Source: Oxalicibacterium solurbis
Lineage (GTDB): Bacteria; Pseudomonadota; Gammaproteobacteria; Burkholderiales; Burkholderiaceae_D
Assembly (NCBI RefSeq): GCF_014635845.1
Contig: NZ_BMDP01000003.1
Coordinates: forward strand, 62,001 to 126,000
Direction: 5' to 3'
DNA: 64,000 nt
Part shown: one piece after another, positions 10,912 through 11,056 of the stretch
Position numbering within the stretch: the first letter of the stretch is position 1
How the letters are laid out: the number at the start of each line of letters is the position of its first letter
Made by a program: the position numbers and the translations under genes
Notes under the pieces: model-generated
Database searches by the model: none
Seen by the model: only the letters and a program-made list of their open reading frames with translations
What the model was told of the DNA's origin: nothing

Positions 10912-11021
10912 TAAAAAAAGCCCTGGAGAAAGGGGAGTATCTCCAGGGCAATAACGCCATATCGCTATGGTAGCGATGCGGCCCCGCTCAGGGAGGAGAA
11001 GCGGGAGATGCATAGCATCTG
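10912..11021 (-). ncRNA. Predicted trans-acting small RNA with an anti-Shine-Dalgarno loop
   Basis: No family assignment is certain. Reading leftward from about 11021, the transcript would form four stem-loops. SL1 is AGATGC/GCATCT (11006-11020) and SL2 is CCCGCT/AGCGGG (10983-11005) with an 11-nt loop UCUCCUCCCUG. SL3 is ATCGCTA/TAGCGAT (10961-10977). The last is GCCCTGGAG/CTCCAGGGC (10920-10949) with loop AUACUCCCCUUU, followed by seven U (10913-10919), an intrinsic terminator. The C/U-rich loops are complementary to ribosome binding sites, as in the cuckoo/CcsR RNAs of alphaproteobacteria. A well-spaced promoter ends 7 nt upstream of SL1. No neighbour gene on this strand needs the terminator. 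Confidence 0.72.
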
Positions 11022-11027
11022 CCATCT

Positions 11028-11056
11028 AGGATAAGCATGCAGCGAAAAAGTTTCAC
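11028..11056 (-). promoter_or_regulatory. Promoter of the predicted small RNA
   Basis: On the minus strand GTGAAA (complement of 11051-11056) and TATCCT (complement of 11028-11033) are separated by exactly 17 nt. Each matches the sigma-70 consensus at four of six positions. The predicted transcription start is near 11021, immediately before the first stem. Confidence 0.6.

Follow-up and report, generated by a model that had tools for sequence, protein, structure and literature searches.

The RNA encoded on the minus strand at positions 10913–11020 of the window (the whole 64,000-nucleotide stretch of Oxalicibacterium solurbis DNA analysed here) is, judging from its sequence, the anti-hemB sRNA of the known Rfam family RF02837. 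The family model matched positions 10913–11008 (minus strand) over its whole length (1–81) with 57.0 bits against a cut-off of 49.5, and this was its only match in the O. solurbis genome. The predicted transcript of about 108 nt, the start of which is placed from the promoter described below, is close in length to the Burkholderia cenocepacia anti-hemB RNA, ncS04 (105 nt), whose start was mapped by dRNA-seq, whose end by 3′ RACE and which was seen in Northern analysis (PMC5688073). Hairpin 1, the terminator, the site beside hemB, the score above the cut-off and the length near 105 nt all agree with the family, and no tested defining feature failed in the window RNA; a covarying 5′ hairpin and a sigmaE-like promoter come in addition to what the RF02837 model covers. 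The first-pass annotation had described an unannotated sRNA, possibly a new family. The above-cut-off RF02837 match and the published mapping of the Burkholderia form contradict the former and rule out the latter, and the idea of a new family was rejected. At the same time, its picture of a free-standing leftward sRNA in a betaproteobacterium, with C/U-rich loops predicted to be complementary to ribosome-binding sites, is supported. What the present data newly suggest is a conserved sigmaE/AlgU-like promoter, together with engB/polA-side relatives that link anti-hemB to ErsA and sX13.

Hfq binding of ncS04 is cited in PMC5688073, the qPCR table of the same paper shows its level unchanged in seven B. 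cenocepacia conditions, and PMC3521395 includes anti-hemB among the B. pseudomallei RNAs that are homologous to known sRNAs. Neither “ncS04” nor “hemB” occurs in PMC10987360 or PMC10175445. The literature search, with most subscription journals outside its reach, found no function for anti-hemB, no paper joining an sRNA with both hemB and engB, and none treating any two of anti-hemB, Pseudomon-1, sX13 and ErsA.

The RNA gene lies between engB (YihA/YsxC GTPase, Pfam MMR_HSR1; 10192–10884, plus strand), which is convergent with it, and hemB (Pfam ALAD, 463.9 bits; 11102–12115, plus strand), which is divergent and has the RNA gene upstream; as the first-pass annotation stated, both flanking genes read the opposite way. 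On the far side of engB, a cytochrome c gene (Pfam Cytochrom_C; 9344–10003, minus strand) forms part of the same conserved block. A bidirectional terminator serving engB as well was considered and rejected, the plus strand having no T-run after the hairpin. The arrangement recurs in the 30 best RF02837 loci of the host order: engB was found in 28 and was 3′ of the RNA and convergent in 27, hemB was 5′ and divergent in all 29 loci where it was found (75–261 nt from the RNA match), and the cytochrome c gene lay beyond the RNA 3′ end in 26 of the 27 loci that had it. The engB gene is 78–88% identical to those of 80 kept loci (the best 80 of 327), mostly named Oxalobacteraceae.

With a folding energy of −53.6 kcal/mol, the 121-nt stretch is far more stable than shuffled sequences (mean −35.84; z = −5.07; none of 200 shuffles as good), and all four consecutive stem-loops read earlier from the minus strand are present, including the anti-Shine-Dalgarno loop and the terminator. 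Hairpin 0, the 5′ hairpin (11006–11020), is defined by fold and covariation and lies outside the Rfam match. Hairpin 1 (10983–11005; fold and alignment) displays the anti-Shine-Dalgarno loop UCUCCUCCCUG at 10989–10999, and hairpin 2 (10956–10982; fold) is variable in sequence and length. The intrinsic terminator (10913–10949) consists of a 10-bp stem (10920–10949), the loop UACUCCCCUUU (10929–10939) and seven U (10919–10913); the U-run and the C/U-rich loop had been described correctly, whereas the stem had been given as 9 bp.

For the analysis of covariation, 76 betaproteobacterial rows were prepared (the window, the 30 best RF02837 matches of the order and 45 engB-hemB loci), and 69 were aligned after L016 (containing an N), L123 (too long) and the near-copies L064, L084, L100, L117 and L121 had been left out. 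The RNA structure is more than chance and covaries in these 69 related rows: the covariation score of 0.266 was reached by none of 500 shuffles, versions slid along the alignment gave at most 0.139, and as many changed pairs were seen in 4, and as many pair types in 8, of the 500 shuffles. Unaided, RNAalifold recovered hairpins 0 and 1 and the terminator, not hairpin 2, with double changes in 12 of 20 pairs. Helix 1 of hairpin 0 showed changes on both sides in all five pairs (91.9% of cells paired), while the innermost pair of this hairpin in the window (helix 2) was kept in few rows (26.9%); in the terminator, double-sided changes were found in nine of ten pairs (92.8%), and hairpin 2 aligned poorly between groups (47.9%). 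In hairpin 1, 99.8% of cells were paired, six pairs were constant except for one cell, and CCUCCCUGAGCGGG was present in 69/69 and CUCCUCCCUGAGCGGG in 50/69 rows, a constancy that is partly built in because 45 of the 76 prepared rows had been picked by a rule requiring the 3′ half of hairpin 1. The pattern for which the first-pass annotation proposed to test, covarying stems around an unchanging loop, is seen in hairpin 0 and in the terminator, whereas stem and loop of hairpin 1 barely vary.

The promoter was correctly placed in the first-pass annotation, where it was read as the pair GTGAAA and TATCCT with 17-nt spacing; after comparison of the spacers, a sigma70 assignment was replaced by a sigmaE-type one, GAAACTT (11054–11048), N16, TCCTA (11031–11027), spanning 11027–11054 of the minus strand. 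Across the 68 rows in which the spacer is 17 bases long, the consensus is [TG][GT][GA]AACTTTT followed by TC[TAC][TG]A, a pattern that we take to be of the sigmaE/AlgU type, and the promoter reads as a putative ECF/sigmaE-like element conserved among relatives. Among the 27 order loci compared (L004–L031 without L029), 24 have the simple pattern AACT-N16..18-TC 5′ of the RNA (shuffled mean 1.6); it is also present in 43 of the 46 rows of Oxalobacteraceae type, the window among them (2.9), in 22 of 28 class loci (1.2) and in one of the three loci L002, L003 and L029 (0.1). With the stricter [GA]AACTT-N15..17-TCNNA, the counts were 16/27, 40/46 and 13/28 against shuffled means of 0.04, 0.12 and 0.04, and again one of the three. 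These three are high-scoring loci of the family f31, which we assume to be Burkholderia relatives; L003 keeps GAAACTT-N17-TCATA, L029 has GAACCAT and L002 has neither. Loss of the promoter in Burkholderia was considered as the cause of the flat ncS04 expression, and this account was dropped because L003 retains the element. A separate case is L032 (1501–1588, minus strand), from the same order, which matches anti-hemB above the cut-off (65.7 bits) in a flank without engB, hemB or polA and has neither promoter pattern 5′ of the RNA.

RpoE is encoded in the O. solurbis genome (323.7 bits, over the cut-off). The scripted search for a GAACTT pattern 5′ of rpoE gave nothing, and by eye only GAACT-N17-TCAAC was seen. 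Genome-wide, GAAACTT-N15..17-TCNTA occurs at two places, one of them the anti-hemB promoter, versus one in the reversed control, and GGAACTT-N15..17-TCNNA is no commoner than in the control (4 vs 14); no regulon could be inferred from these scans of O. solurbis. Because the genome scan and the search upstream of rpoE gave no support, it is conservation at the anti-hemB locus that carries the promoter assignment.

RF02837 is widespread. Among 399 genomes of the host order, 299 gave a match at E ≤ 0.001 and 245 a match over the cut-off; of 274 genomes drawn from the class, 124 matched and 14 exceeded the cut-off, namely O. solurbis, one further genome of the same order (G049) and 12 from other orders. 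A weak match alone means little, because the control genomes of E. coli, Caulobacter and Deinobacterium also match below the cut-off. At the same time, some engB-hemB loci have lost the RNA. In 78 of the 80 engB loci sampled (the best of 327), hemB was on the same contig, and the row-picking rule detected the RNA in 45 of these 78; in 25, of which 23 are named Massilia, Duganella or Rugamonas, the engB-hemB spacer is shorter than 50 nt and the RNA is gone, and in eight the spacer is longer and the motif is absent. An Undibacterium spacer (L132) keeps GAAACTT-N16-TCTTA with a hairpin-1 loop lacking CUCCUCCC, possibly a decayed copy.

Outside the order, the neighbour on the 5′ side changes. Of the 28 best loci of the class (L033–L060), 22 carry engB and/or polA in the flank that was fetched, two of the others only the cytochrome c gene, and four none of these three genes; wherever found, engB was 3′ and convergent (16/16) and polA 5′ and co-directional (15/15). 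Two further class samples were examined, comprising 20 of 21 consecutive rows at E 4e-9 to 8e-8 (one already included) and 20 of 23 consecutive weak rows at E 2e-5 to 2e-4. Here engB and/or polA was present in the fetched stretch of 18/20 stronger and 7/20 weak rows, and in the stronger rows the usual geometry was seen for 11 of 13 engB and 13 of 15 polA genes. The association with hemB seems incidental: hemB, after which this widespread RNA is named, would be a bystander, standing where polA stands elsewhere. Tandem copies also occur, with four anti-hemB-like copies in a row in G568:C33 13148–13886 (L143, L154) and doublets in L036, L039 and L049, and in L043 a c-di-GMP-I riboswitch (2037–2121, minus strand) lies between the RNA and polA.

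An action in cis, by which hemB would be tuned either through transcription from the sRNA promoter, upstream of hemB, or through pairing of the RNA with a long leader of the hemB mRNA, has in its favour the divergent position in 29/29 order loci with hemB at 75–261 nt, the name of the family and a review that gives hemB as the predicted target of Bc7. We nevertheless regard it as quite improbable, since the RNA is also present at polA loci that lack hemB, hemB is kept in the 25 of 78 loci whose spacers leave no room for the RNA, and interference would need no conservation of loop or structure.

The polA side of engB is a place where other sRNAs have been reported. The Spot 42 gene lies in the engB/polA spacer (in E. 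coli K-12 the order is polA, spf, then convergent yihA/engB), and the ErsA gene is reported, in the source text available, from the polA-engB spacer, its transcription being triggered by sigma22, an envelope-stress sigma factor. For sX13, the accessible text of PMC3771888 describes a polA-side locus, three C-rich loops that act on G-rich motifs near start codons and action without a requirement for Hfq. The same text places three sRNAs, sX13, Spot 42 and alpha-r7, beside polA. It finds no similarity in sequence between sX13 and either of the others, proposes that they diverged while keeping their structure, and raises the question whether the polA loci of other bacteria encode sRNAs too, on which the anti-hemB finding bears.

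On the evidence of position, promoter and anatomy, anti-hemB most probably represents the sister of ErsA and sX13 in betaproteobacteria. In the 274 class genomes, the ErsA model (RF01719) gave ten matches, of which six lay at the place and on the strand of an anti-hemB match and all had engB and/or polA in the flanking stretch that was fetched. The sX13 model (RF02232) matched 12, at least three at an anti-hemB place (G534 left out of the comparison) and seven with engB and/or polA in the flank. Matches over the cut-off were one for ErsA (L142) and two for sX13 (L152, L153), all with polA and no engB in the fetched flank. A model built from the 69 beta rows (R1) scored 31.9–60.7 bits on L033–L060 and weakly on true ErsA and sX13, at the right places (12.5–13.8 bits, E 0.06–0.13, the E-values of both our models being rough), so the link to these RNAs runs via intermediates. 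A second model (R2), built from 25 of the 28 class rows (without L036, L039 and L054), gave 30.9 and 28.3 bits on sX13 and 25.9 on ErsA, compared with 12.4 and 9.9 on L158 and L159, which lack both engB and polA; its 62.7 bits on the window are partly circular, the rows having been chosen with the anti-hemB model, whereas the ErsA and sX13 scores are not.

The window RNA itself differs from both in several respects. RF01719 gave no match at window positions 10850–11120 at E up to 1; the C-rich loop is shared, as is GAACTT...TCATA upstream of L142 (by eye), and GAAACTT-N16-TCCTA in the window is conserved and would fit a sigma22/AlgU promoter such as that of ErsA, while the RNA lies not in a polA-engB spacer but with hemB in polA’s place and engB convergent. 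The sX13 model reached 21.3 bits in the window (cut-off 50). Where sX13 has three stems with C-rich apical loops, the window RNA has C/U-rich loops in hairpin 1 and the terminator and a hairpin 2 loop that is not C-rich; a C-run in the latter is present in many class relatives. Moreover, the DNA 5′ of L152 does not look sigmaE-like (by eye), and sX13 differs in print in not needing Hfq.

Convergence, with C-rich loops and terminators arising repeatedly in a favoured engB/polA spacer, appears unlikely as the source of these similarities. It would account for the weak R1 scores on true ErsA and sX13, for the engB-less flanks of L142, L152 and L153, and for Spot 42, which occupies the same place without a C-rich anti-Shine-Dalgarno loop; against it, loci such as L034 and L041 match anti-hemB above the cut-off and ErsA weakly at one place, hairpin 1 is near-identical across many beta and gamma loci (CCTCCCTGAGCGG in 18/25 class rows), the promoter is shared and R2 scores on both ErsA and sX13. 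The Spot 42 model (RF00021) matched none of the 274 class genomes and not the window; homology in sequence was tried and is not claimed, since R2 gave 14.3 bits on spf vs 11.9 at the place of GadY in a 150-kb E. coli control, and the likeness is in the geometry of polA, RNA and convergent engB/yihA.

Common descent is thus our preferred reading, and it is reasonably likely, taken as a whole, that anti-hemB, ErsA and sX13 represent one ancient sRNA gene of the beta-/gammaproteobacterial engB-polA spacer, the ancestor being sigmaE-driven with anti-Shine-Dalgarno loops. In Burkholderiales, hemB would have replaced polA while engB stayed, at the sX13 and some ErsA loci engB would have moved off while polA stayed, and in the Massilia/Duganella relatives the RNA would have been lost; Spot 42, at that place too, may have branched off and diverged widely. 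This scenario is rated lower because L003 keeps the promoter and because the flanks of L142, L152 and L153 are without engB.

The first-pass annotation had compared the RNA with the cuckoo/CcsR RNAs of alphaproteobacteria, with which, we assume, ar14 (RF02344) belongs. The analogy has some support, as the ar14 model matches at 28.8 bits (E 8e-4), weakly and below its cut-off of 58.8, and CUCCUCCC stands in a hairpin loop; the window neighbours, engB and hemB, set it apart, and in position and shape the RNA is nearer to ErsA and sX13. Double-hairpin RNAs of RF02278 (NcS27) and Bordetella S17 are likewise betaproteobacterial RNAs described in print with C/U-rich regions over the RBS. They occupy other loci, and RF02278 gave no match in the window.

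As a joint explanation, we consider it quite probable that anti-hemB is an RpoE-driven, Hfq-binding, trans-acting RNA of envelope stress that masks ribosome-binding sites, a sister of ErsA and sX13 with hemB as a bystander. RpoE (sigmaE/AlgU type) would transcribe anti-hemB in envelope stress, and the RNA would bind Hfq, as cited for ncS04. The hairpin-1 loop UCUCCUCCC would pair with purine-rich ribosome-binding sites of the GGGAGGAGA type in trans-encoded mRNAs, the CUCCCC loop of the terminator would assist in covering them, and translation of the masked mRNAs would be lowered. From the link to ErsA and sX13 and the sigmaE-like promoter together, an inducer and a mode of action can be predicted for anti-hemB. 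A housekeeping role as a constitutively made anti-Shine-Dalgarno RNA, titrating Hfq or translation initiation for instance, would suit the flat ncS04 values in the seven B. cenocepacia conditions and the very general complementarity to ribosome-binding sites; such a role is doubtful, given that the sigmaE-like promoter is conserved in most relatives examined and that ErsA, in the text available on it, provides a stress-induced precedent.

Candidate targets of the proposed masking RNA were sought in the O. solurbis genome, where matching 8-mers do stand before ATG codons. GGGAGGAG-N2..13-ATG occurred at six places vs one in the reversed control, one being the opposite strand of the anti-hemB locus, and GGAGGAGA-N2..12-ATG at 13 places vs none, two of them the anti-hemB opposite strand and a site inside engB. 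The places followed by a frame of more than 100 aa precede genes for an ATPase of an ABC transporter (LivF by eye), two proteins of 214 and 102 aa, amidohydrolase-like, reductase-like and thioesterase-like proteins (by eye), Acs and a BON-domain protein. The one candidate checked, acs, was rejected as a target after a failed conservation check, GGAGGAG being present in one of 30 loci, that of O. solurbis only.

Elsewhere in the window, three consecutive tRNA genes occupy 31165–31498 (minus strand), and a guanidine-II riboswitch (40700–40744, plus strand; 41.6 bits) lies just 5′ of a frame at 40759–41079 that appears by eye to encode a small SMR-type exporter.
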